A stretch of 64,000 nucleotides of DNA from Candidatus Zhuqueibacterota bacterium (GTDB lineage: Bacteria > Zhuqueibacterota > Zhuqueibacteria > Zhuqueibacterales > Geothermadaptataceae). A program made the position numbers and the translations under genes. Below the pieces are notes generated by a model. The model was not told where the DNA came from, ran no database searches, and worked only from the letters and a program-made list of their open reading frames with translations. The stretch is from positions 1 through 64,000 of the forward strand of contig JAUZRQ010000077.1 of the NCBI GenBank assembly GCA_030950365.1, written 5' to 3'. Shown one piece after another: positions 3,001 through 60,414 of the stretch. Positions within the stretch are counted from its first letter, which is position 1. The number at the start of each line of letters is the position of its first letter.

Positions 3001-3873
3001 AATACCACTTCTAGTAGCACATTCGGTTTCCTGTATCATCAAGACGGTGCAGCTCCGCTCCTATGGACCGACGAGAGCGATTCGCTAACCGCCTTTATAG
3101 ATGAAAAAGGCGACGATCACATCGCTATCGCGGCCAGCGATTCCGGCGAGGTGTTTATCATTGGCAAAACGGGCGGGGGCGGGCAGGATGCACCTGCCAA
3201 TCCGCTCTACAAGCGCAATCCCGATGGCGCCTGGGAACGGTTCGTCGTCAATTACTACGCTGATGAACAATGGACACGTCCCTCGCTCGTCATCGATCGC
3301 AGCACCGATCGGTTGTACCTTTTTGGGACTCTACAACGTGGCGTAGGCAAATACAAGGTTTGTCAAATTGGGCAAGAAGGCACTCTTGCCATGCAGACCG
3401 GCGAAATCCTGTACCAGAACAATCTGGATGAGTTCTGGAATTTGAACACGCCGAAGCACAGCGTGGAACAGAGCTGGGGCCTCATGACCATCGCCGACAA
3501 TCTCATCGATGGCACGGTCTGGTACAACCACCTCGACATCACCGGTGCGGTGGCCAAACGCGGCCTGGTGCAGGCGGACGCCGGGGAAGCGGTCAGGACC
3601 TTTGCCCTGCTCGGCAATTTCCCGAATCCGTTCAACATCCAGACCAAAATCGCCTTTCAGTTGCCGGAAACGGCCATAGTGCGCATCAGTGTGTTCGACA
3701 TCCTGGGCCGGCGCGTGAAACTGTTGCACGACGGTGAACTGAAACGCGGACGGCATGTGGTCACCTGGGACGGCACCAATGCCTCGGGACAGGTGGTGGC
3801 CAGTGGCATGTACTTGCTGCAGATCGAAACCCCGCGGCACCGGGTGGCTAAACCCATGACCTTGCTCAAATGA
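1..3873 (+). CDS. Large cell-surface protein with IPT/TIG repeats, propeller-like regions and a C-terminal sorting domain (5' end missing)
   Basis: The frame is open from base 1, so the N-terminus and any signal peptide lie outside the window. Seen in order: IPT/TIG domains at about nt 73-297 and 331-555, a region rich in aromatic and Asp-box-like turns at 600-1680, three more IPT domains at about 1711-1947, 1966-2190 and 2203-2433, a second propeller-like region at 2449-3540, and a terminal domain at 3600-3873 with LLGNFPNPFN, ISVFDILGRRV and ASGMYLLQIET. That last domain matches the FlgD-Ig/Por-secretion sorting type, so export and surface anchoring are inferred. The two propeller-like regions resemble each other (NQSKVFYYDGTWW against NQSRVFYHAGSWW), so half of the protein is an internal duplication. 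The ligand is unknown; adhesion or glycan binding is a guess. A GTG at 301 is only an internal codon. A terminator follows the stop codon. Confidence 0.85.
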   Translation, partial: ETTSQLWFHFLSGSGGSSTPPPAPAITSFTPTSGPEGTEVSIVGSNFTGATAVEFNGAAAATFIVDADTLIRANVPAGATSGPIAVTTPNGTATSADSFTVTQPTPPPAPAITSFTPTSGPEGTEVSIVGSSFTGATAVEFNGVAAATFIVDADTLIRANVPTAATSGPIAVTTPNGTATSADSFTVTQPTPATPTVAEIATTTGGTSDLYPNQSRVFYHAGSWWMIARAAADGDWYLWQFQNNAWQQLTLLETRSSSRLDLQLDPTSGRLYVLFSHRSTPKLLRMTYDISGWVIDSGYPKTISSFAADKNYPMSFVRDSRGEIWVFQIKSGELRMNHSADEGQTWDGLQVLATGLGKGLADCGEFYQNGVAYVGVGFADGGTRGIGFLSHRLGDPITSWTDESGQLGFIGSEQPRKEVALAVASDQSVYLFFSTRSSQASDPGNVLYRRDPATGQWQAYEVNGSADAWMSPGVMVDETNARLYVLGASGAGTVQYKSVLLGQEADLRQQTASTLFEAAGHSLASVGTPRNGVESVAQILFLAGDETGGSLWHGFLPISGGGSAPPPANKPSITGFSPDSGMVGTEVTITGTNFSGATQVRFNNTIAVTYFVDSDSVIRATVPNSATTGKITVVTPNGSATSASDFTVIQPAPVLASFTPSTGNTDTEVRISGQHFSDATEVTFNGTPAVTYSVDADTLIRANVPPGATTGFISVTTPWGTATSADTFTVTQIPIIASFTPTSGTPGTQVTLIGHNFTGATSVMFNGTPVTVYTVDADTMITATLPDSATTGLISVTTAFGTGYSGSNFTVTPQGALGTSIAGTMDGSEKPNQSKVFYYDGTWWIAARSRADSDWYLWKYENNTWVQDAFIHGSSSARPDCFIEPDSAKLYVFVTHKSKTRFNRYSYVNGSWQMDSGYPVSLDFNTNNDDPASFCRAQDGTLWAFRINRGNLEAVYSIDEGQSWSAPVVLKNSLNASSGVTSAVRFAAAGQTYVGVAYGENTTSSSTFGFLYHQDGAAPLLWTDESDSLTAFIDEKGDDHIAIAASDSGEVFIIGKTGGGGQDAPANPLYKRNPDGAWERFVVNYYADEQWTRPSLVIDRSTDRLYLFGTLQRGVGKYKVCQIGQEGTLAMQTGEILYQNNLDEFWNLNTPKHSVEQSWGLMTIADNLIDGTVWYNHLDITGAVAKRGLVQADAGEAVRTFALLGNFPNPFNIQTKIAFQLPETAIVRISVFDILGRRVKLLHDGELKRGRHVVTWDGTNASGQVVASGMYLLQIETPRHRVAKPMTLLK
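73..555 (+). repeat. Near-identical tandem IPT-encoding repeat, 258-bp period
   Basis: The segments at about 73-297 and 331-555 are almost identical at the DNA level and in frame. Both encode an IPT domain with the motifs ITSFTPTSGPEGTEVSIVGS and VDADTLIRANVP. The offset is 258 bp, exactly 86 codons. The later IPT domains of the same gene (1711-2433) are clearly diverged, so this pair is a recent in-frame duplication, and more units may lie upstream of the window edge. Confidence 0.9.
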
Positions 3874-13439: not shown

Positions 13440-13460
13440 CGAAATTCCTTGAGGGAATTC

Positions 13461-14769
13461 ATGATTGGAACCACGTTTTTGCACTACCGAACACACGGGG
13501 AATTGGGACAGGGCGGCATGGGCATTGTTTACGAGGCCGAGGACACCCGGTTGCACCGCGTGGTTGCCCTGAAGTGCGTTAACGCGGTTGCGGCGCACGA
13601 TTCAGGACAACAGGAACGGCTGCGCCGCGAAGCCAGGACCGCAGCCGCCCTGAACCATCCCAATATCGCGACCGTTTATGGTCTCGAGGAATGCGACGGC
13701 CAGCTCTTTCTCGTGATGGAATACATCGAAGGACAAACGCTTTACGATCTGGTGCGCAGCACGCCTGATCTGGCCATTGAAACCGTGCTTGCCATCGCAC
13801 GGCAAAGCGCAAGCGGTCTGGCCGCAGCCCACGGCATGGGCATTGTGCACCGGGACATCAAATCGCAAAATATCATGATTACCGCCGACGGTCAGATCAA
13901 AATCGAGGCCATCGAGCAATTGCGCAAGGCGCTGGCGGTCGATCCACTCAATGCCGTGGCGTACCGCGAAATGGCCGCGGCCTTTGCCCGTCTCGGCCAA
14001 ATCGGCCAGGCCGAGGTCACCTATCTCCAGGCCATCGAACTCAAGCCCAATTACTGGGCCAACTATTACCGCCTGGCCCTGTTTTACCACCGCCGCAGCG
14101 AGTATGTGAAAGCCGAGAAAAATTATCCGATCGTTACCCAGTTGACGCCGCTGAATCACATCGTTTACCCGGAACCTGGGGGCCCCGTACGCGGCGCAGG
14201 AGCGGTTTAACCAGGCGCAGGTCATGTGCGAAAAATCGCTCCAGATCAAGCCGAATTACGGCGCCTATGCCAACCTGGGCTATCTATATTTTTACGCCGG
14301 CCGCTACGCCAATGCCGCAGCCATGTATGAAAAAGCGCTGACCTTTCAAAATCGCTACTATTTGAATTTTGGTAATCTGGCCAGCAGCTACAAATTCATC
14401 GGCAAGGGGACCGAGGCGCGGATCCATTTTGAAAAAGCCATCGAGCTGGCGGAAAAGCAATTGCGGGTCAATCCCAAAGATGCCCGTGTGCTCTGGGGGC
14501 TGGCCGGATTTTGCGCCAACCTGACCAACAAACAGAAGGCGCTGCACTATCTGAATCGCGCGCTCAAAATCGATCCCGATAACCAGGATTTGCAATTCAA
14601 GGCGGCTGAAGTTTACGCGATTTTTGGGGATGCGCCGCATGCGCTGCGTTTTGTCAGAAAGGCGCTCGAAAACGGCTATTCCCTGAAAAGGCTGATGAAA
14701 TCCCCGGACCAGGCTACGCTGAAAACTCATCCGGATTTCATCAAGCTATTGCAGCAATTCAAAACATAA
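13461..14769 (+). pseudogene. Decayed Ser/Thr protein kinase-TPR gene (C-lobe deleted, frameshifted)
   Basis: The frame opens at ATG 13461 after GAGGG. The kinase N-lobe is intact: glycine loop GELGQGGMGIVYEA, Lys38 in VVALK, and catalytic loop HRDIKSQN at 130-137. The sequence then jumps at about nt 13905 straight from GQIKI to TPR repeats (EAIEQLRKALAVDP), so DFG, the activation loop and the whole C-lobe are absent. Near nt 14171 one extra base shifts the frame. The first frame stops at 14210, while the next frame continues the TPRs from AACCTGGG at 14173 (NLGAPYAAQERFNQAQ) to 14769. Functional family members run kinase, then DFG/APE, then many TPRs. Two independent lesions argue for a pseudogene, although the TPR part could still be made from ATG 14224. 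Confidence 0.8.
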
Positions 14770-33402: not shown

Positions 33403-33794
33403 TTTGCAAATCTTTCTTTATCGCCTCTCTATTCGAGAACTTCGTTTACCCGGCTACAGAAATACAACTATGTGTTGCTCATGAAGGAAAATGACTATTC
33501 AGTCTGTCACCACTATAAGTTGGCAATTTTTAATTCCGAATGCAATATATTCTGCTCGACAACGAGGGCATCGAATGTTACATTAATTTAATTAGCATAT
33601 TCTATCAATTTATTTTAATTTGTTAATAATGATACTAGTACAGTTTTTGCTAAACGTGCTTTCTCCAAGCCGGTTTGAACAACAGCTCCGAAAAGTTTCC
33701 ATCTGTTCATAGCAGGCCTCTCCATAACACCAATCCACTGGTGTCTAAAGTGATCCAATCAACGCCTTTTCATAAACTTATACAGGAGGTTGTC
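33403..33794. other. AT-rich divergent intergenic region
   Basis: Strongly AT-rich around 33590-33650, the likely promoter zone for the secreted protein at 33795. The frame upstream to 33675 is open but precedes the signal peptide and is not called. Confidence 0.5.
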
Positions 33795-34943
33795 ATGCGT
33801 ACGTGGCTACGGGGATTTATAGTTGCATTTGGGCTGGCTGCAATTTCCGGAACGGCTTTCGCACAGTTCCAGCTCACTCTAAATTTTCAGAATATGAATC
33901 CGCATTTGAACCAGGCATTTCATTTGCGGGTCGTTAATCAAGCCTCAGGCCTGGAGGTCGGTCGCTATACTATCGGCGCCTTGAGCGATGCGAATTTCAC
34001 CATTGAAATGTTAGTATTGCTGCAAGATGAAAGTTACTGGATCGATTTCTATGCCGATCTTAATCAGAATGGCCAATATGATGCGCCACCTCTGGATCAC
34101 GCCTGGCGCATGGAGCTCAACAACGCCGCCAGCGATACCGCGCTGACGTTCAGTCACAACACCAGCTTTACCGACATCCAGTGGCCCGGCGATATCGATC
34201 CTTACCAATTCACGGGCGAGTGGAGCGGCACCTGGAAAAACCTCACGTACCAGACCACCGGACCGATTTTCGGCACGATTACCTTTGATACCGACAGCAT
34301 GAAAGTTAGCGGCGAATTCAAGACCACGGGCGCGTTCGGGAATCCGGATACCACGGTGTTCGCTTTCGAGGGCAAAATCGATTCAACCTCCGGCGATACA
34401 ATGAGGGTACAGCTTCCCGCGCCCTGGACCGGATCGATTGCGCTATTTAATGGCACTATCTCCGGTACCATTACGGATCCGTATCTGTTCGGCACCGGAC
34501 TCTCCATGACTTTCACAGGAAACTTCGGCCTGGCGCAGACCATCTTTCGCTATAGAATGAGTGGCACGTTTCAGGCCGATGGCATCGTGGTAATGAGCCA
34601 TCCTGACATTCCCACCGGGATCGTTTCGCCTGTTGCTGCATCGCAGCCAGAGGATTTTGCCATTTTGCAAAATTATCCCAATCCCTTCAATCCGGAAACC
34701 CGCATCCGGCTGCAGTTGAAATCACAGGCGCACGTGGTGGTGGCCATTTATGATGTACGGGGAGGCCTGGTACGGCAATATGCACCGGGGGCGGTGCCGG
34801 CTGGCGTTTATGAAATTGCCTGGGATGCACGCGATTCGCGCGGACTTCAGGTACCCGGTGGTATGTATCTGGCCAGAGTAACGATTGCTCCGGCCGATCA
34901 ACCAGCCAAAACGCAAACATTGAAAATGCTGCTTTTGAAATAA
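33795..34943 (+). CDS. Secreted protein with a Por/FlgD-type C-terminal sorting domain
   Basis: 382 residues. AGGAGGT lies 4 nt before ATG 33795, and residues 1-23 form a signal peptide (RGFIVAFGLAAISGTAFA). The mature part begins with a beta-rich domain (about 25-140, aromatic- and Asp-rich, with DLNQNGQYD resembling a calcium loop). A second beta domain (about 150-290) with repeated GTITFDTD and GTISGTITDP strands follows. The C-terminus carries the full sorting signature NYPNPFNPETRIRLQL, VVVAIYDVRGGLVR, PGGMYLARV. Known role of that tail: export by the type IX system, or surface attachment, in FCB bacteria. Activity of the mature region is not recognised. Confidence 0.85.
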   Translation: MRTWLRGFIVAFGLAAISGTAFAQFQLTLNFQNMNPHLNQAFHLRVVNQASGLEVGRYTIGALSDANFTIEMLVLLQDESYWIDFYADLNQNGQYDAPPLDHAWRMELNNAASDTALTFSHNTSFTDIQWPGDIDPYQFTGEWSGTWKNLTYQTTGPIFGTITFDTDSMKVSGEFKTTGAFGNPDTTVFAFEGKIDSTSGDTMRVQLPAPWTGSIALFNGTISGTITDPYLFGTGLSMTFTGNFGLAQTIFRYRMSGTFQADGIVVMSHPDIPTGIVSPVAASQPEDFAILQNYPNPFNPETRIRLQLKSQAHVVVAIYDVRGGLVRQYAPGAVPAGVYEIAWDARDSRGLQVPGGMYLARVTIAPADQPAKTQTLKMLLLK

Positions 34944-48358: not shown

Positions 48359-48918
48359 TTTGTTTTCCCTAACTGATTGATTGCTGAGTAAACGAGAATT
48401 TAGGACTCACACCATGTTCGCGGCGAGAACAATTTGGCATGCCATTTCGGTTCGTAACTGTCGGTGTAACGATCGGGCCGCGCAACGCCCAAACCACAAG
48501 GTGCTTCATGCATTAGATGGTTGAATTATCAAACATTTCCTTGCAAAGGGTGGGAATTCGTCTTGAACGCCGTTGCAAACTCGAAACCTGCAACCAAAGC
48601 GGTTTCCCTGCACATAAACGTCGGGGCCCTGAACCGTTACTCGATAACAACACTAAAACTTTACAATATATGCCCTTAAAAGTCAAGCAAAAATATCGAC
48701 GGTGCAAGGAGTCGGATTGCCTCACACGCGACCGCCAATGCCGAAATTTAGATTCCTCCCGCATTAAGCTTGATTCGAATTCAGAAAAAGTTTATCTTCT
48801 GTTACACTTTGGAGAAAATTCAACCAATTCGGCTATTTGAAGAAACTCCCGCGCTTTATTTTCGTTCCATTTGAAAGAAATTAGCACAAAATGTGACAGA
48901 GACGAGAAAGCCACACGA
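48359..48918. other. Intergenic region, no supported gene
   Basis: About 560 bp. The frame at 48517-48840 has an unprotein-like composition (Cys/Arg/Lys-rich) and no ribosome site. Nothing else recognised. Confidence 0.45.
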
Positions 48919-49845
48919 ATGAAACCGATGCAAAAGTATTATGACCAGATCCGCACACAACTTTCGCTATACGAAAAATCCGTTCTAACCTATCTGGGCA
49001 TCTCCGCCGCTTTTGCTCTGATGTTTCATCAAAACATCGAGAAATGGGACTACATTGTCGGCTATCACTTCGCCCTCATTACCAGCATTCTGGCAATCAA
49101 CGCCATCCGAATCGATGAAAAAGGATGGCTGCGCTTTTTGAAGAACTGGTACATCTTTCTCGTTTTCCCGGTGCTGTTTAAAGAGCTTACCTTCCTGTCG
49201 CAGGCACTTTTTCCTTATTATTTAGAACCGTTGATCGTGTCCAGTGAGGAGCGGCTGTTCGGCCTTTTCGCAAAATATCTGTTCCAGCCGGAAAACAAGT
49301 GGCTCACCGAACTGATGGCTTTTTCGTACAGCTTCTACTATTTCCTGGTTCCGCTGGTGGGCATTTACATTTATCGCAAACGCTCCTTCAGCGAGTTTGA
49401 AATCTTTGCCTTCCGTTTTTGCACCACCATGTTTATCTGTTATGGCCTGTTCGTGCTCATTCCGGTTCGCGGTCCTCATCACAGCGTGCTGGCTGCCGAT
49501 CCCAACGCGCTCGAAGGCTACTTTTTTTTAAAACTCATTCACTGGATGCAATCGTACGGCTCGGCCGTGGGCGCGGCCTTCCCCAGTTCCCACGTGGCCG
49601 CCACATGGATTGCCGCGTTTTCGCTCAAACGTGTACGGCCAGAGTGGTACCGCCTTGCGCTACCCTTCTTGATTCTGCTGACCATCTCCGTGTTTTATCT
49701 TCGCTATCATTATATTGTGGATGCCATTGCCGGATACGCCCTGGCTCTGGTGCTGGATCGCTACTTCGAACGCAAGTTGCAGCCGCACGCAGAAATGGTT
49801 ATCAAGCCTGCCCTTCCCAAGGCAACCTCTGGAGTCAAGCCATAG
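48919..49845 (+). CDS. PAP2-superfamily membrane phosphatase
   Basis: About 308 residues with six membrane helices. Acid-phosphatase motifs: AAFPSSHVAAT (Pro-Ser-Ser-His, near residue 225) and RYHYIVDAIAGYAL (His/Asp). These act on lipid or isoprenoid phosphates at the membrane surface. The first motif region (IPVRGPHHSV) is degenerate but in place. ATG 48919 is chosen over the TTG at 48871, whose extra residues are polar. It may work in undecaprenyl pyrophosphate recycling or lipid-A/phospholipid turnover. Confidence 0.82.
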   Translation: MKPMQKYYDQIRTQLSLYEKSVLTYLGISAAFALMFHQNIEKWDYIVGYHFALITSILAINAIRIDEKGWLRFLKNWYIFLVFPVLFKELTFLSQALFPYYLEPLIVSSEERLFGLFAKYLFQPENKWLTELMAFSYSFYYFLVPLVGIYIYRKRSFSEFEIFAFRFCTTMFICYGLFVLIPVRGPHHSVLAADPNALEGYFFLKLIHWMQSYGSAVGAAFPSSHVAATWIAAFSLKRVRPEWYRLALPFLILLTISVFYLRYHYIVDAIAGYALALVLDRYFERKLQPHAEMVIKPALPKATSGVKP

Positions 49846-50499: not shown

Positions 50500-51552
50500 G
50501 TGAAAAAATTACATACAAAGGCCGCTATTTTTGCTTTGTTAGTAGGGCTGGTGTGGAGTGGTGAAAGCATGCTCGCGCAAACCACCATCTGGGGTGGGCG
50601 CGGGCTGCTGCGCGTGCAATCCGCTGAAACCATAGGCCGACGCACGTTCTATCTCAATTCCTACTTTGGCACGTTTCTGCAAGCCAAACCTCAGCAAACC
50701 ACGCTCGGTAAAGATCATACACTCACCATCGGGCTTACCTATGGTTTCAGCCCACTGCTGGAAATTACAGCACTGCTGACGCCGTACCAGGATGACCAGC
50801 AGCACGTGTGGGGGCCTCCCGGTGATTCCCAGCTTGGCTTGAAATTCCGGACGCCGTTTTCCGGTAGTTCGATTATCACCTCGGTGTGGCTGTTCACGCG
50901 TATTCCTACCGCCAAAGTAGCCAATGTGCCGTTTGAGCCGTATTCGTCTGGGAAGCTGGGTGCCGGTGCCATGGCTATCATGACCCTGGATATGACGGAG
51001 AGCTTCCCTCTGTTTCCGCTCAAGGCTCATTTGAATTTCGGCTACATGGACCACAACCTGAAAGACGCATTGTTCAACGACCCCGAAGATCAATTTTTGT
51101 TGGGCGCGGGCTTCAAGTTTCCCATTCGCTCGACCATCGTTTACACAGAATACACCGCAGAAGTTTTTGCGAACAATCCCGTGATTACGCAGTTTAATCA
51201 AAATTCGCAGCGAATCACGCAAGGCTTGAAATTCCTGGGCCCCAAGAATTTGATTTTTGATATTGCTGTGGATTTTTCTCTCTCCAAGAAGCCAGACAAC
51301 CCGGATCGGGTCTTCCTCAAGGAGTATGCGTCTTGGAAATTTTACGTTGGCATCAATTATCAGTTCTTTTTCGATCGTTCGGAACGGGGTTTGGTCACGC
51401 GCCATCGTTCCCGCAATGACAAAGCCCAAAAGCTGGAATTGCCGCCGGAAGTCAATGAGCGTCGGCAGCAGATTCAGGATGAATTAAAGAAGATGGAAAA
51501 AACCTTAAAAAAAGAAAAAGATAAGAAAAACAAGTCAGAACACGAAAACTAA
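50500..51552 (+). CDS. Exported barrel-like outer-membrane protein
   Basis: 350 residues from GTG 50500, preceded by CCGGGGA; a TTG at 50473 is an alternative. Signal peptide about 1-26 (AAIFALLVGLVWSGESMLA). The next roughly 270 residues alternate as amphipathic strands (HTLTIGLTYGFSP, IITSVWLFTRIPT, KFYVGINYQFFF), suggesting a large barrel or beta-sheet protein. The last 50 residues are a charged coiled coil (RRQQIQDELKKMEKTLKKEK), unusual behind a barrel and probably periplasmic. No family recognised. It precedes the TPR-motor cluster and may be its outer-membrane partner; that is inference. Confidence 0.7.
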   Translation: MKKLHTKAAIFALLVGLVWSGESMLAQTTIWGGRGLLRVQSAETIGRRTFYLNSYFGTFLQAKPQQTTLGKDHTLTIGLTYGFSPLLEITALLTPYQDDQQHVWGPPGDSQLGLKFRTPFSGSSIITSVWLFTRIPTAKVANVPFEPYSSGKLGAGAMAIMTLDMTESFPLFPLKAHLNFGYMDHNLKDALFNDPEDQFLLGAGFKFPIRSTIVYTEYTAEVFANNPVITQFNQNSQRITQGLKFLGPKNLIFDIAVDFSLSKKPDNPDRVFLKEYASWKFYVGINYQFFFDRSERGLVTRHRSRNDKAQKLELPPEVNERRQQIQDELKKMEKTLKKEKDKKNKSEHEN

Positions 51553-51749
51553 GGCAAGTTGTTGCGGTGTGTAATTGATCTGCCTCTCGGCCGATCGGGA
51601 ACGGAATCTGAATCGGTATATAGAAACATCATTTCGGCAACGGCCGAAAGTACATCCGCCATTTTTTTGCATTTTGAATCAACCGTCCCGACGCGTCAGG
51701 ACGGAACGAGTTGGCCTTAACAGGGACGTGAAAGCATAGTGGATTGTCA

Positions 51750-53137
51750 ATGAAAGAAAATGTATTTCGTTTGGTTCTGGTAGTTAGCCTTTTTGCGATT
51801 ACAACATCAACGTTCGCTACGAGTTTTCTCCAGATGGCCGCTGGCCCCGTGACCGAAGCCGCCGTGCAATCCAAACGCCAGAAAAAAGCGCTGGAAAAGG
51901 CGGCCATGCGGCTGTATAAAAATGCCTTGCGCCAGTATGAAGTCGGGGACTACTGGAATGCCACACGTGAACTCATTCTCATTCTCGATTATTACACCGA
52001 TTTCAGCGCGATCGACGGCGTTCTGTATTATCTGGGCGAAAGCCTGTATGAAATGAAAATGTTTCGCTCCAGCGATAAAATCTTTCGCTATTTAATGAAC
52101 AACTATCCGGCGAGCGAATACGTGCCGCGCGCCCTGTTTGGCCTGCAGCGGATTTATTACAACATTCAGAAATTCGACAAAAGCCTGCAATTTTACAGCG
52201 GCCTGACGACTCGCTATCGCGACAGCGATATCATCGATGGCGCCTATTATTACGGCGGCATGGCGTATTACCATCAGAAAAAATATGACGATGCCATTCG
52301 TGCGCTCAGCAAAATCCGCACGCGCAGCGAATATTTTGAATATGGCCTGTACACCGTCGGCCTCGCTTTCTTAAAAAAAAAAGTATTTCCCAATCCGTCA
52401 AAGCGCTGCTTAAGCTGACCACCCTGCCGATCATCCGTCCCGAACGCCAGGACGTGGTGATCGCGGCGCATCTGACTCTGGGATATTTGTACTATGAGCT
52501 GGGCTTTTACCCCGAGGCTATGAAGCACTTTGCCAAGATTCCCTCTGACGATGCCGTTTATAATGACGCTCTTTTAGGGCAGAGCTGGGCGGCCATCAAA
52601 CTCAGCGACTATCAGCAGGCCATCATCACCCTCAATGCGCTTTTAAAAAATACGGACGAGGACAAATACACCGAGGAAGCTCATTTTCTTTTGGGGCAAT
52701 GTTATCTGGAACTCGGTTTGTACGACTTTGCTGTCAACGAATTTGATTTTATCGTCAGGCAATACCCCGGCACCAACAACATAGAGGCCCGCCTCGAGCA
52801 CGTGGAAGCCGGATTGGTCGAACAGTCCAAGCGCGCGGAAAAGCTGGGGCTGGATTTATTGGTTCTAGAAAGCAAACTCCTGGATATGCTCCCGTTGGCC
52901 ACCAACGGAGACGTGCCAAAATACATTCTTGAGGAAAAGAAACGCCTCGAAAAAACGCGCGAAAAACTGATGAAAAACATCCTGAGAGAACGCGAAATTT
53001 TCGAGGAATTCCAGTGGAGTATTCTTAAAATCCGGGAAGAGATGGAACTCAAGCGCCGGCGCAAGCACTGGCGCGCCTATGCTGAATACGGTAAGGCCCG
53101 GGCCTACTTTTTAAAGTCCATGCAACGTACCCGATAG
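51750..53137 (+). CDS. Exported TPR protein, reading frame interrupted at an A10 run
   Basis: The first frame (ATG 51750, signal peptide LVLVVSLFAITTSTFA) carries TPR repeats (YYLGESLYEMKMFRSSDKIF and on) and stops at 52418. At 52373-52382 there is a run of ten A. The -1 frame continues the same TPR protein across it (SISQSVKALLKLTTLPIIRP) to 53137. It ends in a long charged coiled coil (residues rich in EKKRLEKTREKLMKN and ELKRRRKHWRAYA). One additional A would restore a single frame, giving about 460 residues. The break may be a real mutation, a homopolymer error, or a slippery site with transcriptional or ribosomal slippage. Position and content fit an AglT/GltE-type TPR scaffold in the following motor operon. 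Confidence 0.72.
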
Positions 53138-53255
53138 CCGGGCCGACCAATCGTATTGAAGCAGGGGGATGATATGCGGTTTAACCCCGCTTGCACTTGG
53201 AACCAGGGTAAACAACCTGGGGTTACAACAGCTTTAGCAGGTGAAAGGTGGACAA

Positions 53256-56207
53256 ATGGAAAAACGGTTTCAGTGGCTCCCTCTGATTTGCATTTCGGGT
53301 CTCGTAACACTGAGCGTGATTTTTTGGCAACCGTCGAATTCCGGTTTGCTGCAGGCACAGACGACCGACTCCGCGGCACAGGCCGTCACGAACCTCCCGA
53401 TCAACAATATGAGCGATATCGATCGGGCCATCCGGGAATGCGAATCCCTTATCGAAAAATATCCGCAAAGCGATTTTACGCCCACGGTCATGTTCCAGTT
53501 GATGGAACTCTACTATCGCAAGGCGAGCGAGGAATATCAAACGCGCATGGAAGCCTACGAAGCGGAACTGGCGCGTTTTGAAAAAGGTGAAATCAGCATC
53601 GAGCCGACTATTCCGCGCATTTCCTACAACAAAGTCTTTCAGATTGGGAATCGCCTGCTTGAGGAATTCCCCACCGCTGATTTCATCGATAAGGTGATTT
53701 ACCGGATGGGTATCTCCTATTTGCAGGAGCGAAATTACGACCGCGCTATCGAGTACTTCACCAAACTGGCCGAAGAATACACCTACAGCGCTTACTACGA
53801 TGAGGCCAATTTCCGCCTCGGCGAGCAGTACTTCGATCAGCGCAATTACGATGAAGCGATCAAGTATTACAGCCGCCTCATGGATCGCTGGAACAGTCCC
53901 TTTTTCGACATGGCCCTGTATAAACTGGGCTGGGCCTACTACAATCAGGACAATTACTCCAAATCCATCTCTACTTTCATTTTCCTCATCGACGATTTGA
54001 ACCGGCTCGACAAATCCGAGCAAAATCTGCTGGGCAAAACCACGGCCGATCTGCGTAAAGACGCGATGGCGTACGTAGCCGAATGCTTCGCAGAGCTCGG
54101 CGGCGCGAAACAACTGGAGAAATTTCTCCAAGAAATCGGTGAAAAGGAATATGCGCAGTCGCTATTCCTCAAAATGGCCGAGATTTTTCAGAAGCGTAAT
54201 TTCTACGACGAGTCCAACGAAACCTACGCCACGATTTTAAAGCTATGGCCTCTGTATGAAAAAGCGCCGGAAGTGCAGGCGCAAATCATCGAAAATTACA
54301 TGAAGATCGAGGATTTTGCGGCGGCCGAAAAGGCGCGCGAAACGCTAGTGCAGAAATACGGACCCGGTAGCGAGTGGCTGCGGCGGTATCCCGAGGGCGA
54401 GGCCCGGGAAAAAGCCCTGGAGCTAGCAGAGACCAATCTGTATATTCTGGCCACCGATGCCCAGGCCCGCGCCATGGAAAACAAGTCGGCGCGTGATTTT
54501 TCACTGGCCATTGCGCGCTACCAGGATTTTCTGGAGAAATTCTCGGAAAGCGAGTTAGCACCGAAGGTACAGTTCTACCAGGCCGAATGCTATTTTGAAA
54601 TGGGCGACTACCTGAATGCCAGCAAGGCCTATGAACAGGTAGTGCTGAACCATCCGGATCACGAATTTGCCGTCAAGGCGGCGTACAACCGCGTGGTGGC
54701 GGCATTGAATTTGATTCAGGCGGCCAATGGCACAGCCACCGACTCGGCTACCATCTACATCAAAGATTTTCTCGGCACCGGCGAAATGAAAGCCGTGCGC
54801 ATTCCCAACAAGCATTATGAGGAGTTCTTCAGCGCTTGCAATGATTTTGCTCGCTTCTATCCGGATGCTGAAAAGCTTCCAGAAGTGCTGATGAAGTTCG
54901 GCGAGACCCTGTTCAGTCTGGATTACTTCGACCTGGCGCAGAATGCTTATCTCGAGGTCATCAATCAACGGCCGAGCTCCAGTTACACGCTGCGAGCATA
55001 CAGCATGGTAGCGCAGAGCGCTTTCAAGCAGGAAGATTTCGTTTCGGCGGAAAAGTGGTACAGCCGCATCATCGAAGAGTTTCCGGATTCGACCCGCTAT
55101 GTTCAGAAAGCCGAGACCATGATTGCTTCGGCCAAATTCAAGCTGGCCGAACAGCTCAAATCCAAAGGCCAGCTCGATTACGCGGCCAAAGCCTTTGAAA
55201 ACATTGCGGTCAGCACCCGCAACAAAGGCATTGCCGAACGCGCGCTTCTGGAAGCCGCCTTGCAGTACGAAAAGGCCGGCGAGAAGACCAAAGCCATTAT
55301 CCTGTATGAAAATATGTACGATCGCTTCCCCAAATCCAATAAAGTGGACGAAGCGCTGTTCAAGGCGGCGGTGCTTTCCGAAGAGTTGCCCGATTACAAC
55401 CGGGCGGCGGAAAATTACCTGCGCCTGGTGGAGCTACGGCCGACGTCCATTTACGCGCCCAAGGCGCTGTACAATGCCGCAGTTTGCTATGAAAATCTGC
55501 AGGATTACGACCGCGCCGCGCAGGTGTACGAGCGCTATGTGGCCACCTACCGCGACGATCCGAACCGGCATATCGATGCTCTGAGCAAGATCGGCCTGTT
55601 TGCCTTCGACAAAAAAGATTACGGCCGGGCGCAAAAATATTTTCTGCGCGTGCTGGAAACCTACCACGCGTTCATCAAAGAAGGCAAGTCGGTGGATGAA
55701 TACCCGGTGGCCGAAGCGCAGTTCAAAATCGCCGAGATTTACTTTGACGAATACAAACAGATCGAGCTGGTGGAGCCGCTGGCGAAAAACCTGAAACGCA
55801 AGCGCAAGCTGTTCGAACAGGTGGTGCTGGCCTGTCAAAATGCGGCCAAATACAAAGTGGCCGACTGGACCACCGCTGCGCTGTACCGCATCGGGGCGGC
55901 TTACGAGGAGTTCAGCCGCGCGTTTCTCGATTCACCACGGCCCCAAGGCCTGGCCCCGGACATGCTGGCCAAGTATGAAGAAAATCTGCAGAAAAAGGTG
56001 TTGCCGCTAAAGAAAAAAGCGCTTGAGACGTACCGCCAGAATTTGAAACTGGCCGAAGAAAACAATTTGCAAAACAACTGGATTCAACTGACGCGTGAAC
56101 GCGCCGAAAAGCTCACGCTGGAGCTGGGGCTGGTGAAGGCCGAACCAGCCGAACCGCCTCATGTGAAAGCGGAAATGACCGAAAAATCCAGACCGGATGA
56201 AGAATAA
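53256..56207 (+). CDS. Large exported TPR protein (Agl/Glt-like scaffold)
   Basis: 983 residues. ATG 53256 follows AGGTGGACAA; N-terminal hydrophobic segment (WLPLICISGLVTLSVIFW) acts as signal peptide or anchor. Almost the whole chain is tetratricopeptide-like repeats, many with the pattern A..Y..ILxxYPxSxxVPxALY, ending in a charged helix (LVKAEPAEPPHVKAEM). Such long periplasmic TPR proteins (GltE/AglT group) scaffold the energised gliding or Tol-like machines. It follows the frameshifted TPR gene and precedes a small secreted protein, ExbB and ExbD genes. Confidence 0.85.
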   Translation: MEKRFQWLPLICISGLVTLSVIFWQPSNSGLLQAQTTDSAAQAVTNLPINNMSDIDRAIRECESLIEKYPQSDFTPTVMFQLMELYYRKASEEYQTRMEAYEAELARFEKGEISIEPTIPRISYNKVFQIGNRLLEEFPTADFIDKVIYRMGISYLQERNYDRAIEYFTKLAEEYTYSAYYDEANFRLGEQYFDQRNYDEAIKYYSRLMDRWNSPFFDMALYKLGWAYYNQDNYSKSISTFIFLIDDLNRLDKSEQNLLGKTTADLRKDAMAYVAECFAELGGAKQLEKFLQEIGEKEYAQSLFLKMAEIFQKRNFYDESNETYATILKLWPLYEKAPEVQAQIIENYMKIEDFAAAEKARETLVQKYGPGSEWLRRYPEGEAREKALELAETNLYILATDAQARAMENKSARDFSLAIARYQDFLEKFSESELAPKVQFYQAECYFEMGDYLNASKAYEQVVLNHPDHEFAVKAAYNRVVAALNLIQAANGTATDSATIYIKDFLGTGEMKAVRIPNKHYEEFFSACNDFARFYPDAEKLPEVLMKFGETLFSLDYFDLAQNAYLEVINQRPSSSYTLRAYSMVAQSAFKQEDFVSAEKWYSRIIEEFPDSTRYVQKAETMIASAKFKLAEQLKSKGQLDYAAKAFENIAVSTRNKGIAERALLEAALQYEKAGEKTKAIILYENMYDRFPKSNKVDEALFKAAVLSEELPDYNRAAENYLRLVELRPTSIYAPKALYNAAVCYENLQDYDRAAQVYERYVATYRDDPNRHIDALSKIGLFAFDKKDYGRAQKYFLRVLETYHAFIKEGKSVDEYPVAEAQFKIAEIYFDEYKQIELVEPLAKNLKRKRKLFEQVVLACQNAAKYKVADWTTAALYRIGAAYEEFSRAFLDSPRPQGLAPDMLAKYEENLQKKVLPLKKKALETYRQNLKLAEENNLQNNWIQLTRERAEKLTLELGLVKAEPAEPPHVKAEMTEKSRPDEE

Positions 56208-56220
56208 CGTGTGAGTTGTG

Positions 56221-56607
56221 ATGATGAATCGCAGGGCATTTCTACCGATTGGCACGTGCATCATTGCGGGATTGCTCATCGCCGCCCCCGTTTTCTCGCA
56301 GGGAAAATCGGGGCAGGAACCCAAAAAAACCGACAAACCATCCCAACTTTCTCCGGATCAGCTTTCGAAAATTCCGGAGCCGGATGTGAGCGAGGCCGGC
56401 GAGAAGGCCCGGATTTTGCTGGATAAAATCGAAATTCTCGGTACCGTGGCCAAACCGCAGGCCATCTTCATCATTCCCGGCAGCGACCCCCAGGTCGATG
56501 GTATCCGAATCGATCGGTCGTTTTTCCTGGAAATTTTCCGGCCGGTGGAAAAGGACTTCTTTCCGCAACGCGGCCGGCGCAAGTTCCAGGTTACCATTCC
56601 ATGGTAA
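56221..56607 (+). CDS. Small secreted protein between TPR and TolQ genes
   Basis: 128 residues from ATG 56221 (GTG 56218 and ATG 56224 also possible). Signal peptide (IGTCIIAGLLIAAPVFS), a Lys/Pro-rich linker, then a short domain AIFIIPGSDPQVDGIRIDRS that looks like a beta-hairpin plus helix, and FQVTIPW at the end. Not recognised. Located 13 bp after the TPR gene, so co-transcribed with it; a small partner of the TPR scaffold is likely. Confidence 0.65.
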   Translation: MMNRRAFLPIGTCIIAGLLIAAPVFSQGKSGQEPKKTDKPSQLSPDQLSKIPEPDVSEAGEKARILLDKIEILGTVAKPQAIFIIPGSDPQVDGIRIDRSFFLEIFRPVEKDFFPQRGRRKFQVTIPW

Positions 56608-56817
56608 GCTGTCAAACAGCCGATTCCGCCAGTTGGTCCTGATGTTTCCCATTCCCGTCCGAAATGCATAGGTGGTTCTTCAGGGATGAACCTGGCTCGA
56701 TACGGACATCGATTGAATAGGCTTGCTCTGCCATGAGGTGGGAGTGGTTTGTGTTTTATGGCATATAGCTATTTGGATTTGATGATACGAATGGCATCGG
56801 TTTCTTTGTTACGATTC

Positions 56818-57019
56818 GAAACTGTTCAGCATGTGCCGTTATTTGTCATTCTGGCTTTCAGCCGCGACCGCAAGGGAGACGCTGAAATGCCGGAATCTCA
56901 TATCCGCTTATTCAGGGAAAGAGATTCCGGGATTTTTCGCCATTCCTCTTTCGTGGAATAGCGAAAAAACCGGAAGGACAATTTAAATGTTGAAATTATG
57001 AATGCGGCTGAATAGTTAC
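56818..57019. repeat. MITE-like intergenic element, copy B
   Basis: Ends GAAACTGTTCAGC (56818-56830) and GCTGAATAGTTAC (57007-57019). The left 88 bp matches the reverse complement of copy A at roughly 90%, and the right end read in reverse (GTAACTATTCAGCCGCATTC) matches the left end of copy E. Two ATTCCGG/CCGGAA stems lie between. Confidence 0.75.
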
Positions 57020-57175
57020 AATGATTCAAACTGAGCTGCCATTTGTCCTTCCGGATTTCAGTGGCGAGCCAAAGGGAGCCATTGAAATCCGGAATTTCGT
57101 TCCATGGGACGATACTCCGGTGTCCGCCAGTAGTTGGCCCCTTCCGACAGCGGCAAAACCGGAATGACAAAGTGG
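57020..57175. repeat. MITE-like intergenic element, copy C (abuts copy B)
   Basis: CTGAGCTGCCATTTGTCCTT then TTCCGGATTTCAG and CATTGAAATCCGGAAT inverted arms, a TCCGCCAGTAGTTGG segment shared with copy D, and CCGGAATGACAA. It sits immediately after copy B, and a half end, GTAGCTATTCAGC, occurs at about 57256. Boundaries are approximate. Confidence 0.5.
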
Positions 57176-57450
57176 ATTTCAAACAATCCGGCAGGAGGAC
57201 ATGCCACCGCTACGCGGTTTTCGGTCGGCCATGGGGGCACGGATTTGTTTTTTGTAGCTATTCAGCCCAGAAAATGCCTGGGATTGCGAACAGCCGCCAT
57301 TTGGCGGATGCGAAGCAATCACCGTGGACCGGCTATTTTACGAATTGGTCTTCGACAAAATTCGGATTTTGTCGGTATTCTATGTTGATCGGCAAAAAAT
57401 CGTTCATGATAAACGCAGGATGAAACAACCAAAAATGGGAGGTTTTAGGC

Positions 57451-58080
57451 TTGTTAGACACGATTGTTCGATTCTTTCAGCAGGGTGGCGGCTTCATGTT
57501 CGCCATTTTGGGCGTGCTGGTCATCAGCATCGCCATTATGATCGAGCGATTCATCTATCTCAGCGTCAAAAATCGCATCGATGAAGTCGCATTCGTCAAC
57601 CGCATTCTGGATTTCATTCAGAAAGGGCAGGTTTCCAGCGCCATTGAGTATTGCAACATGTCCAAAGCGGCCCTGCCGCAAATCACCAAAGCCGGCCTCG
57701 AGGAATTCGGCAAAAGCCCGGCGGACATCCAGAATGCCTTGGAGCTGGCCGCCATGTCCGAAATTCCAAAGCTGGAAAAGCGCACGCCGTACCTGAGCAT
57801 GTTCGCCAACGTGGCCACGCTGCTCGGCCTGTTGGGCACCATCTTCGGCCTCATCAACTCTTTCGAAGCGGTGGCCTCGGCCGATGCGTCGCAAAAAGCC
57901 ACGCTGCTGTCGGCCGGTATTTCGGTAGCCATGAACACCACGGCCTTCGGCCTGATTGCCGCCATTCCGGCGCTCATTGGCTATTCCTATTTGCAGGAAA
58001 AGACCAATGAGCTGATCGACAGCATCAATGAAAACGTGGCGCGAATCTATCGTCGTATGGTTTCTGCGGGCAGGAATTAA
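57451..58080 (+). CDS. MotA/TolQ/ExbB-family proton-channel subunit
   Basis: 209 residues starting at TTG 57451, which has GGGAGG 8 nt upstream, a good site that decides this unusual start. Three membrane helices: GGGFMFAILGVLVISIAIMI, then LSMFANVATLLGLLGTIFGL and ISVAMNTTAFGLIAAIPALI, the canonical TolQ/ExbB helices. It would form the pentameric proton-driven motor with the ExbD/TolR dimer encoded next, two bases later. It is AglR-like in context. Confidence 0.92.
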   Translation: MLDTIVRFFQQGGGFMFAILGVLVISIAIMIERFIYLSVKNRIDEVAFVNRILDFIQKGQVSSAIEYCNMSKAALPQITKAGLEEFGKSPADIQNALELAAMSEIPKLEKRTPYLSMFANVATLLGLLGTIFGLINSFEAVASADASQKATLLSAGISVAMNTTAFGLIAAIPALIGYSYLQEKTNELIDSINENVARIYRRMVSAGRN

Positions 58081-58082
58081 CC

Positions 58083-58538
58083 ATGAACCTGAAAAAAGCG
58101 AGTCGGAGAGATCGCGGCACCGGCGATGATGTGAACATCACCCCGGTGATGAACCTGTTTCTGGTGCTGGTGCCGTTTCTGCTGCTCACCGCGGTTTTTG
58201 TGCGCATCGCCGTACTGGAGCTGAGCCTCCCGTCGCTCAGTCAACAGAGCCAGGCGGCCCCCAAGCCGGATAAGCCGGTCGTCATCATTCTACTAGCGAT
58301 CAACAAAGACGGCTTTGAGCTCAAGGCGCCGGCCATGAAGTTTCGGCCAATTCCGTTGAAAAACGATCAGTATCAGTTTGAAATTTTGCGCAAAAACCTC
58401 GAACGTATCAAAGCAAAATATCCGGATACGGAAGAAATCACCATTCAGCCGGGCGATGACGTCCTGTACGAGATCATCGTGAAAGTGATGGACGCCTGTC
58501 GCGAAAGCGGTTTTCCGAACATTTCCATCTCCGGTTAA
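58083..58538 (+). CDS. ExbD/TolR-family protein with Asn in place of the motor Asp
   Basis: 151 residues, 2-bp gap after the TolQ gene, so coupled. One N-terminal transmembrane helix (ITPVMNLFLVLVPFLLLTAV), then a periplasmic TolR-like domain. In TolR/ExbD the helix normally reads TPLIDVFLVLL, with Asp conducting protons. Here the aligned residue is Asn (PVMNLF), while the next paralog has Asp. It is therefore likely non-conducting on its own and may serve in a heterodimer. Confidence 0.88.
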   Translation: MNLKKASRRDRGTGDDVNITPVMNLFLVLVPFLLLTAVFVRIAVLELSLPSLSQQSQAAPKPDKPVVIILLAINKDGFELKAPAMKFRPIPLKNDQYQFEILRKNLERIKAKYPDTEEITIQPGDDVLYEIIVKVMDACRESGFPNISISG

Positions 58539-58555
58539 AAGAACAGGAAAGAGCC

Positions 58556-59065
58556 ATGTTGAATTTAGGTTCGAACAAGTTTTCGCTGGTCGCACGCGTG
58601 TCTCGCCGCAACCACGGCGATTTGCGGCTGCGGTTGACCTCCATGATCGACATGTTCACGATTCTATTGGTATTTTTGCTCAAGAGCTATTCCGCAGAGG
58701 GGCAAATCATCACGCTGTCCAAAGATCTGCGGCTGCCGGATTCGACGGCAGAAAAACCGCCCATATCGTCGCCGATCATCATGGCCACGCAGGAATGGCT
58801 GTTGTTGGATGACGAACAAATTGTGCCCATCGATGAAATCGTGAACGGCAAAAGCCTCACCATCCGCCCGCTGCAGGCCAAACTGGCCGAAAAGAAGGCT
58901 ATCGCCGAACGACTGGGGCAGATGGATCCGTTGCTCGGGTTCAAGGGCAACATAACCATCCAGGGCGATAAAGAGATTCCCTTTAAAATCTTGAAAAAAA
59001 TCATGTTCACCTGCGGCCAGGTCGGATACAACAACATTCTTTTGGCCGTGAACAAGCAGGAATAA
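58556..59065 (+). CDS. ExbD/TolR-family protein retaining the Asp
   Basis: 169 residues. GGAAAG-type site 8-10 nt before ATG 58556. N-terminal basic segment, transmembrane helix with the conserved Asp (RLTSMIDMFTILLVFLLKSY), then a periplasmic domain ending in ITIQGDKEIPFKILKKIM, typical of ExbD. Together with the Asn-bearing paralog it would form the rotor of a TolQ-type motor. The two paralogs are clearly diverged. Confidence 0.9.
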   Translation: MLNLGSNKFSLVARVSRRNHGDLRLRLTSMIDMFTILLVFLLKSYSAEGQIITLSKDLRLPDSTAEKPPISSPIIMATQEWLLLDDEQIVPIDEIVNGKSLTIRPLQAKLAEKKAIAERLGQMDPLLGFKGNITIQGDKEIPFKILKKIMFTCGQVGYNNILLAVNKQE

Positions 59066-59076
59066 AGACAGGAAAT

Positions 59077-60414
59077 ATGGCTAAGCAGAAACAAGTACTA
59101 CACCTTCGGATCGAACAGGATGGAAAGGTTCTGCATCGCTATTTGCAGGGAAAGGACGCTTTCTATATCGGGAAAAGCCATAAAAATGACGTCATTCTGA
59201 TTGGCGAGCAGTTCCCCAAGCGGCACCCGCTGTTCGTGCGCAAGGGCGACCGCTACGTGATGCAACTGCCCCCCATGGCGGATGGCGAGATCCTGGCCAA
59301 AAATTCCCGCCTGCGGTATGCAGACCTGATTGAACATGATCTGCTGCCGCGGGGAAAGGGCTATTTCGAGCTCGAGATCAAGCCCGGGCGCATGGGCTAT
59401 GTATTTCTGAACAGCACGCGCATCGACTACGTGTACGAGAGCAAGCCCGTGCCGACGCTCGATACCAGCGCATTTTCGCCCCTGCACGTGTTTCTCAAAG
59501 GGCTTAAAGAAGACCTACTGTTCAAGACCATCGCGGTGTTTTTATTTATCATCAATGCGGGCATGCTGTATGCCCTGCGCGATTATATGCCCGAAGTCAA
59601 AATTCAGCCCATCGAAAAAGCCACGCAACGCCTGGCGCGGTTCGTGCTCAAGGCGCCCGAGCCCCCCAAGCCCGTGACCACCTCAGTCGCCAGCAATGAA
59701 CCGACTACGGAAGAATCGGCTTCTACCGAACCCAAAGAACCCAAGAAGAAAGAATCGGCTAAAAAGGACGCCTCTCCCGAGCCAAAGAAGAAGGTGGATC
59801 CGGCCAATCTGGGTGTGCTGGCGCTGCTCGGCGGAACCGGTGAAAGCAGCAGCTCCAATTCGGTGGTGGATTTCCTGCTGAACAAGGACCTGGCCACCGG
59901 TCTGGGCGAGGTGACCAAATCGCGCAAGCTGACCGTGGGCAAAAGCGGCACCGGCACCGGTGGGGATGAGATCGACGAGCTGCTCACCAGCATCAGCACC
60001 GGCGGCATCGATGACATTCTCGGCGGCATGGACGAGGAAGTCGAAACGGTGTCGCTGTCGAAAAAAGGAGAGGTGCAGATTGAGCGGCTCGGCGGCGTTT
60101 CGGGTTCGGAAGAAGCCGTGGGCGCCCGCAACGAGCAGTCGCTTTACGAGGTGCTGCGCGCCAACATGGGCCGGCTGACGTATATTTACAACAAGTACCT
60201 GAAGCGCAACCCGGATTTCCGTGGCGAGATGCGCGTGGAGGTGACCATTGCCGCGAACGGACGCGTGGTGGACGTGAAGCTGATTTCATCCACCATGGGC
60301 AACAGCGAGTTCGAGCGCGAGATTCTCGCCGCCATTCGCCGATTCCGCTACGATCCCATTGCGTCAGGAACGGTCAAGGTGGTGTATCCCATTCTGTTCA
60401 ATCGCATTCAATAA
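59077..60414 (+). CDS. FHA-like/TonB (AgmX/PglI-type) energy-transducing protein
   Basis: 445 residues, starting 11 bp after the second ExbD gene. Cytosolic N-terminal beta-sandwich (about 5-125) with FHA-like features (FYIGKSHKNDVIL, RHPLFV), then one membrane helix near 147-170 (KTIAVFLFIINAGMLYALRD). A Pro/Lys/Glu-rich periplasmic stalk (about 190-250) precedes a GG/Ser-rich linker and a C-terminal TonB/AgmX-type domain (about 355-445) with FRGEMRVEVTIAANGRVVDV and FRYDPIASGTVKVVYP. This order is that of GltG (FHA-TM-TonB) in gliding machines and of similar proteins in other lineages. The coupling of a cytosolic sensor domain to an energised periplasmic arm is inferred. It ends the operon at a terminator. 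Confidence 0.85.
   Translation: MAKQKQVLHLRIEQDGKVLHRYLQGKDAFYIGKSHKNDVILIGEQFPKRHPLFVRKGDRYVMQLPPMADGEILAKNSRLRYADLIEHDLLPRGKGYFELEIKPGRMGYVFLNSTRIDYVYESKPVPTLDTSAFSPLHVFLKGLKEDLLFKTIAVFLFIINAGMLYALRDYMPEVKIQPIEKATQRLARFVLKAPEPPKPVTTSVASNEPTTEESASTEPKEPKKKESAKKDASPEPKKKVDPANLGVLALLGGTGESSSSNSVVDFLLNKDLATGLGEVTKSRKLTVGKSGTGTGGDEIDELLTSISTGGIDDILGGMDEEVETVSLSKKGEVQIERLGGVSGSEEAVGARNEQSLYEVLRANMGRLTYIYNKYLKRNPDFRGEMRVEVTIAANGRVVDVKLISSTMGNSEFEREILAAIRRFRYDPIASGTVKVVYPILFNRIQ

Follow-up and report, generated by a model that had tools for sequence, protein, structure and literature searches.

Luciano et al. (2011, PMC3169522) described an Agl/Glt 'core complex' (Group B) made up of AglRQS, GltD, GltE, GltG and GltC. 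Agl/Glt genes are already known beyond the myxobacteria, in gamma-, beta- and other deltaproteobacteria and in Fibrobacter, and the core complex is reported to occur in bacteria without documented gliding and to be insufficient for motility by itself (PMC3169522). Myxococcus xanthus has an Agl-Glt machine for gliding and an Agl-Nfs machine for the spore coat (PMC3169522, PMC3858216). The function of the stand-alone core complex has been a question since 2011.

Here, we analyzed a 64,000-nucleotide stretch of DNA from a Candidatus Zhuqueibacterota bacterium (the whole stretch is referred to as the window), in which the initial annotation had proposed an Agl/Glt-like envelope machine outside the myxobacteria at positions 50500-60414. 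The placement outside the myxobacteria is correct for this locus, but it had been anticipated by the reports from other groups (PMC3169522). The locus is assigned to the Agl/Glt core complex type, and not to Tol-Pal or TonB, as detailed below.

Gene content and conservation of the cluster

Every part listed in the initial annotation was found in 50500-60414, collinear and on the plus strand. The first gene (50500-51552) encodes a predicted 12-stranded outer-membrane beta-barrel with a signal peptide and a C-terminal helix, as judged by AlphaFold2 and fold search. It is followed by the genes for a GltE-like exported TPR protein (51750-53137), a GltD-like giant exported TPR protein of about 983 aa (53256-56207) and a small exported protein, probably GltF-like, with the motif I-x-G-x-x-x-K-P-Q (56221-56607). 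The TolQ-like gene, which has a TTG start, encodes an AglR-type MotA/TolQ/ExbB motor subunit (57451-58080), and the two TolR-like genes encode ExbD/TolR subunits of the AglQ type (58083-58538) and the AglS type (58556-59065). The FHA/TM/TonB protein at the end of the cluster (59077-60414) is a GltG-like transducer with a degenerate FHA fold (about residues 1-123), a transmembrane segment (about 147-167), a disordered linker and a TonB-like C-terminus. Both exported TPR proteins are present as annotated, but the gene for the first consists of two ORFs (51744-52418, then the -1 frame to 53137).

When the window proteins were searched by tblastn against 20 class-level loci, the order barrel, GltE, GltD, small protein, AglR, AglQ, AglS, GltG was common to the relatives; the exceptions were L036 and L037, which are cut by contig ends, and L046, in which no barrel was detected. 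This conserved gene order argues that the cluster is not a product of chance. The barrel was detected in 17 of the 20 loci, with two of the absences being contig ends. GltG was matched in all 40 near relatives (40/40, E up to 1e-10) and, at 1e-15, in 73 of the 82 genomes of the phylum, including nearly all of the class. Outside the class, the full-length FHA form of GltG is found in some genomes only, and the rest match via the C-terminal part alone, like the paralogue from a second cluster (C77) of the window's own genome.

Several other features were observed in and around the cluster. A PAP2-family membrane protein is encoded upstream (48871-49845), at a position kept in several relatives. 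The small gene and aglR are separated by an 843-bp gap (56608-57450; 433 bp in a congener) with several inverted repeats, possibly a small mobile element. In two relatives, the core cluster is immediately followed by an additional AglR/AglQ/GltG-like set (L041:1710-4195; L044:1396-4139). The second Agl/Glt-like cluster of the own genome (C77, L063:8365-19509) encodes TPR proteins of 969 and 1547 aa, a small protein, AglR, AglQ (with Asn), AglS and a GltG-like protein without FHA, and has no barrel. Elsewhere in the window, a Ser/Thr kinase-TPR gene (13449-14769) seems shortened and is split in two ORFs, possibly decaying, and secreted proteins at 301-3873 and 33675-34943 carry C-terminal sorting-like ends (PNPFN...), which suggests type IX-like secretion.

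Assignment to the Agl/Glt family

The family named in the initial annotation was borne out by profiles and phylogeny. The NCBIfam GltG model (NF033760) matched the protein at 59077-60414 with E=1.5e-30. Its score of 106 bits is below the equivalog cut-off, which is 650, and we therefore classify it as GltG-like rather than GltG proper. The AgmX/PglI tail domain (NF033768) scored above its cut-off; generic Tol-Pal or TonB families were not favoured. A tree of 53 AglR, TolQ and ExbB rows contained an Agl clade of 26 rows with a support of 100/99. This clade takes in the window's family, the C77 cluster and the Agl motors of Myxococcus, Bdellovibrio and Citrifermentans, with poorly supported branching within it, and leaves out TolQ, ExbB and the other paralogues of the own genome. 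In Myxococcus, the window AglR matched two aglRQS-type triads (C55, C185) at 1e-41 and 3e-38, and a TolQ-like gene at 5e-19. Two distinct ExbD/TolR subunits adjoin AglR in the window as well as in the class loci. GltD and GltE are both exported TPR proteins, whose matches are weak and, outside the class, partly driven by the TPR repeats, which align widely. For GltC, there was a marginal match only (NF033756, E=0.0014), located in the second half of gltE.

Pfam recognized TonB_C alone in the GltG-like protein and left the FHA domain unmatched. In the AlphaFold2 model, the N-terminal beta sandwich matches the FHA domains 6ccd, 5a8i and 2lc1 (probability 1.00; E 0.004-0.01, best 3.6e-3), and the C-terminal end is TonB-like. 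The FHA identity was accepted on this structural match, Pfam having given none. An alignment of the FHA region demonstrated that G32, N37 and P47 are kept and that IG[RK]xxxND is present, with FPK at the position where FHA domains usually have SRxH. The domain thus appears degenerate, and the FPK makes phosphothreonine binding doubtful.

At the position of the membrane Asp, AglQ has an Asn in the window (Asn24) and in 20 relatives (21/21), and also in the C77 paralogue, whereas TolR, ExbD and the AglQ of Myxococcus, Bdellovibrio and Citrifermentans have Asp at this position, the equivalence being read from the motif. AglS has kept its membrane Asp (Asp32). The substitution D28N in M. xanthus AglQ abolished motility and sporulation (PMC3858216), so the AglRQS motor here would either run on a single Asp or couple differently.

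Profiles built from the class were also searched against the clusters of two outgroups. Bdellovibrio (L198) encodes, on one strand, GltD, another TPR protein, a GltF-like protein, AglR, AglQ, AglS and GltG, and Citrifermentans (L199) has the order GltE, GltD, AglR, AglQ, AglS, GltG. By hhalign, the small protein of the window was linked to GltF through two intermediates found in Myxococcus (L185) and Bdellovibrio (L198). It matched these with 98% probability (2.3e-13), and they in turn matched the GltF encoded at the Myxococcus gltG locus, together with its relatives, with 97% (5.4e-11). Compared with GltF alone, the small protein gave a weak match (75%), which was used only together with the intermediates. 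These linked comparisons suggest that the small protein is GltF-like, which would extend the range of GltF beyond the Myxococcales and Bdellovibrionales, the only groups in which Luciano et al. had placed it (PMC3169522). An identity of the small protein with the extra Citrifermentans gene was unsupported (9.6%). No profile match to the barrel was found beside the Myxococcus, Bdellovibrio or Citrifermentans clusters. In its AlphaFold2 model (pLDDT 78.7), the 12 strands and C-terminal helix have FapF, NanC and KdgM as best PDB folds, and we regard the barrel as a candidate output part of the machine.

A recurrent frame break in gltE

The two ORFs of gltE meet at an A10 run (CTTAAAAAAAAAAG, 52373-52382, plus strand), which is the longest homopolymer of the window and the proposed recoding site. 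Frame 0 reads TTC TTA AAA AAA AAA GTA at the run and then reaches a stop, giving 222 aa. Joined via the -1 frame, the halves give 462 aa, as in intact relatives; GltE of M. xanthus has 471 aa. In a census of the phylum, gltE was broken in 17 of the 51 genomes whose site was read, every time by -1 at the same LKKK codons (17/17; 14 on A10 and 3 on A11). In-frame genes have runs of 11 or 12 in four genomes and of at most eight in the others, so that among runs of at least ten the out-of-frame state prevails by 17 to 4. Broken genes belong to the families f1, f2, f7 and f11 within the class and to f15 and f16 elsewhere in the phylum, that is, to at least two classes. Within the order, the run is A10 without exception in the nine broken genomes, and genomes of the same genus agree in their gltE state. 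A tree of the GltE C-terminal half implied six state changes, of which five are forced by well-supported branches.

Both halves of gltE are under selection. In the second half, the codon changes between the window and a congener are silent in 83 cases and replacing in 13, and 84 of the 110 base differences fall on third positions. In five broken relatives, the KKK triplets listed from other places in the cluster genes contain AAG in every case. Judged from ORF lengths in the fetched loci, none of the other seven cluster genes has a comparable split.

A sequencing or assembly error might be suspected at a homopolymer in draft genomes, but 17 genomes share the codon, the direction and a run of A10 or A11 only, and relatives have A11 and A12 in frame. 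Moreover, two relatives at 57-58% GC encode the Leu preceding the run by CTA, a rare codon that lengthens the run (TTA and CTA together account for about 1% of Leu codons there). We hold an error to be extremely unlikely. The run could also be a phase-variation switch, at which DNA slippage flips full-length GltE on and off between cells. Such a switch would agree with the different run lengths among species (A10, A11, A12) and the occurrence of both frame states; the uniform A10 of the order, the excess of out-of-frame genes among long runs and the agreement within genera speak against it, and we find it unlikely, though worth keeping in mind.

Proposed recoding and its probable mechanism

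Programmed slippage at the gltE run is the likely reading. The pattern YTWA9B occurs twice in the 4.98 Mb genome, in gltE and in dnaX, which share an identical 13-mer (TTAAAAAAAAAAG). A reversed-pattern control was equally frequent, with two occurrences. The count of sites therefore does not exceed chance, and the argument rests on the location in dnaX, a classical recoding gene (PMC1088944). In dnaX of the own genome (C77, L292:833-2638), the A10 run is identical to the gltE site and lies just past domain III: this domain ends at residue 368 of the 602-aa protein, and the run is at residues 376-379. A shift in either direction reaches a stop within nine codons, an early end that would be as expected for a gamma product, and tau/gamma recoding at this run is likely.

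For gltE, transcriptional slippage is favoured over a -1 ribosomal frameshift, which appears less likely, because the broken runs all have at least ten A's, whereas a ribosomal -1 shift needs seven, and because no stimulatory RNA structure was found near the run in the window (z = -0.05). The constant -1 direction is compatible with slippage and with a ribosomal shift on A-AAA-AAA alike. In Citrobacter rodentium tssM, slippage at A11 yields 20-25% full-length protein, and the ratio is essential to function (PMC4256274). By analogy, most of the GltE made here may be the truncated form, which is exported and comprises the N-terminal TPR half.

Cellular role

A variant Tol-Pal system serving envelope integrity would account for the matches to TolQ, TolR and YbgF models, and the window's family shows no TolB above cut-off, in a search made noisy by generic propellers. 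We nevertheless consider it very unlikely, as the tree places AglR outside the TolQ clade, TolA, TolB and Pal are all missing from the cluster, an FHA domain is present, and the complex also occurs in relatives that have TolB. The least probable reading is a TonB-ExbB-ExbD energiser of nutrient uptake: the C-terminal fold of the transducer is TonB-like, but AglR falls outside the ExbB clade too, the ExbD-type subunits number two, and an FHA domain, giant TPR proteins and an operon without a receptor do not fit uptake. In favour of a genuine Myxococcus-like gliding machine, with MglA and the chemosensory cluster giving direction, one can cite the core parts, the chemosensory genes and the proteins recovered by a search of the genome, namely an MglA scoring 222 bits against that of M. 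xanthus and roadblock/MglB-like proteins. A roadblock-MglA-roadblock operon was observed there (C108, L067:8481-10021). Thermus has MglA as well, which makes it no marker of gliding. The motility-specific GltA/B/H/I/J/K are not encoded in the cluster, and the core complex is reported to be present in bacteria without documented gliding and not to suffice for movement (PMC3169522). The initial annotation had argued for surface motility from a chemosensory cluster lacking flagella; this lack is true within the window, but matches to FliG_C (148 bits) and PilT (492 bits) were found in the genome at large. With flagellar, pilus and MglA/B-like genes in the genome, the 50500-60414 locus is not singled out by the chemosensory genes or by MglA, the motility proposal is not upheld, and gliding seems improbable.

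The complex is carried by relatives irrespective of whether they have FliG, PilT or TolB. This favours surface transport or anchoring via the barrel, and the near-universal presence of the complex in a class outside the lineages of first description argues for a general envelope role. We consider it probable that the locus encodes an Agl/Glt-type core complex passed down vertically within the class, with the barrel as output and GltE dosage set by recoding. AglRQS would act in the inner membrane as a 5:2-type motor driven by protons and move GltG, whose cytoplasmic FHA-like domain may dock or sense and whose TonB-like end would enter the periplasm. The GltF-like, GltD and GltE (TPR) proteins would assemble with these and pass the motion to the outer membrane, with the 12-strand barrel as its likely output. 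Such a complex would most likely serve to move, export or anchor a polymer or protein of the cell surface, and not to make the cell glide. In the window's species and 16 others, in which gltE is out of frame at A10 or A11, some full-length GltE would arise by slippage of RNA polymerase or, with lower probability, by a -1 shift of the ribosome, the other product being the N-terminal TPR half. Against this joint reading stand the in-frame A11 or A12 of some relatives, which is compatible with DNA-level phase variation, the absence from AglQ of an Asp that its M. xanthus counterpart cannot do without, and a cluster with no linked cargo or polymer gene. A bolder version, to which we give an even chance, is that in an old machine shared by a whole phylum the proportion of two GltE lengths is determined by programmed slippage during transcription, that the A run predates the class split, and that the ExbD-like pair works with one proton-binding Asp.

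Comparison with known systems

The locus resembles the core complex of Luciano et al. in having a motor triad, an FHA-TM-TonB GltG and exported TPR proteins in one cluster. It differs in belonging to another phylum, in having a GltF-like protein and a 12-strand barrel of its own, in the Asn of AglQ, in the predicted recoding of gltE and in a GltC that is a marginal match only. The motor and transducer are homologous to those of the gliding and spore-coat machines of M. xanthus, whereas the cluster is without their motility-specific Glt proteins and without a known cargo polymer. Similar to C. rodentium tssM (A11, PMC4256274) and Thermus dnaX (A9, PMC1088944), gltE has a long A run near an out-of-frame stop, and two protein lengths are expected; in contrast to those cases, the run belongs to a gene of the Agl/Glt type and is found repeatedly within a phylum. 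New in this locus are the -1 break of gltE at A10, the Asn of AglQ and the barrel as a candidate output part. The gltE site bears on whether the ratio of two protein lengths matters, as it does for TssM, and the Asn on whether one Asp is enough for a 5:2 motor.
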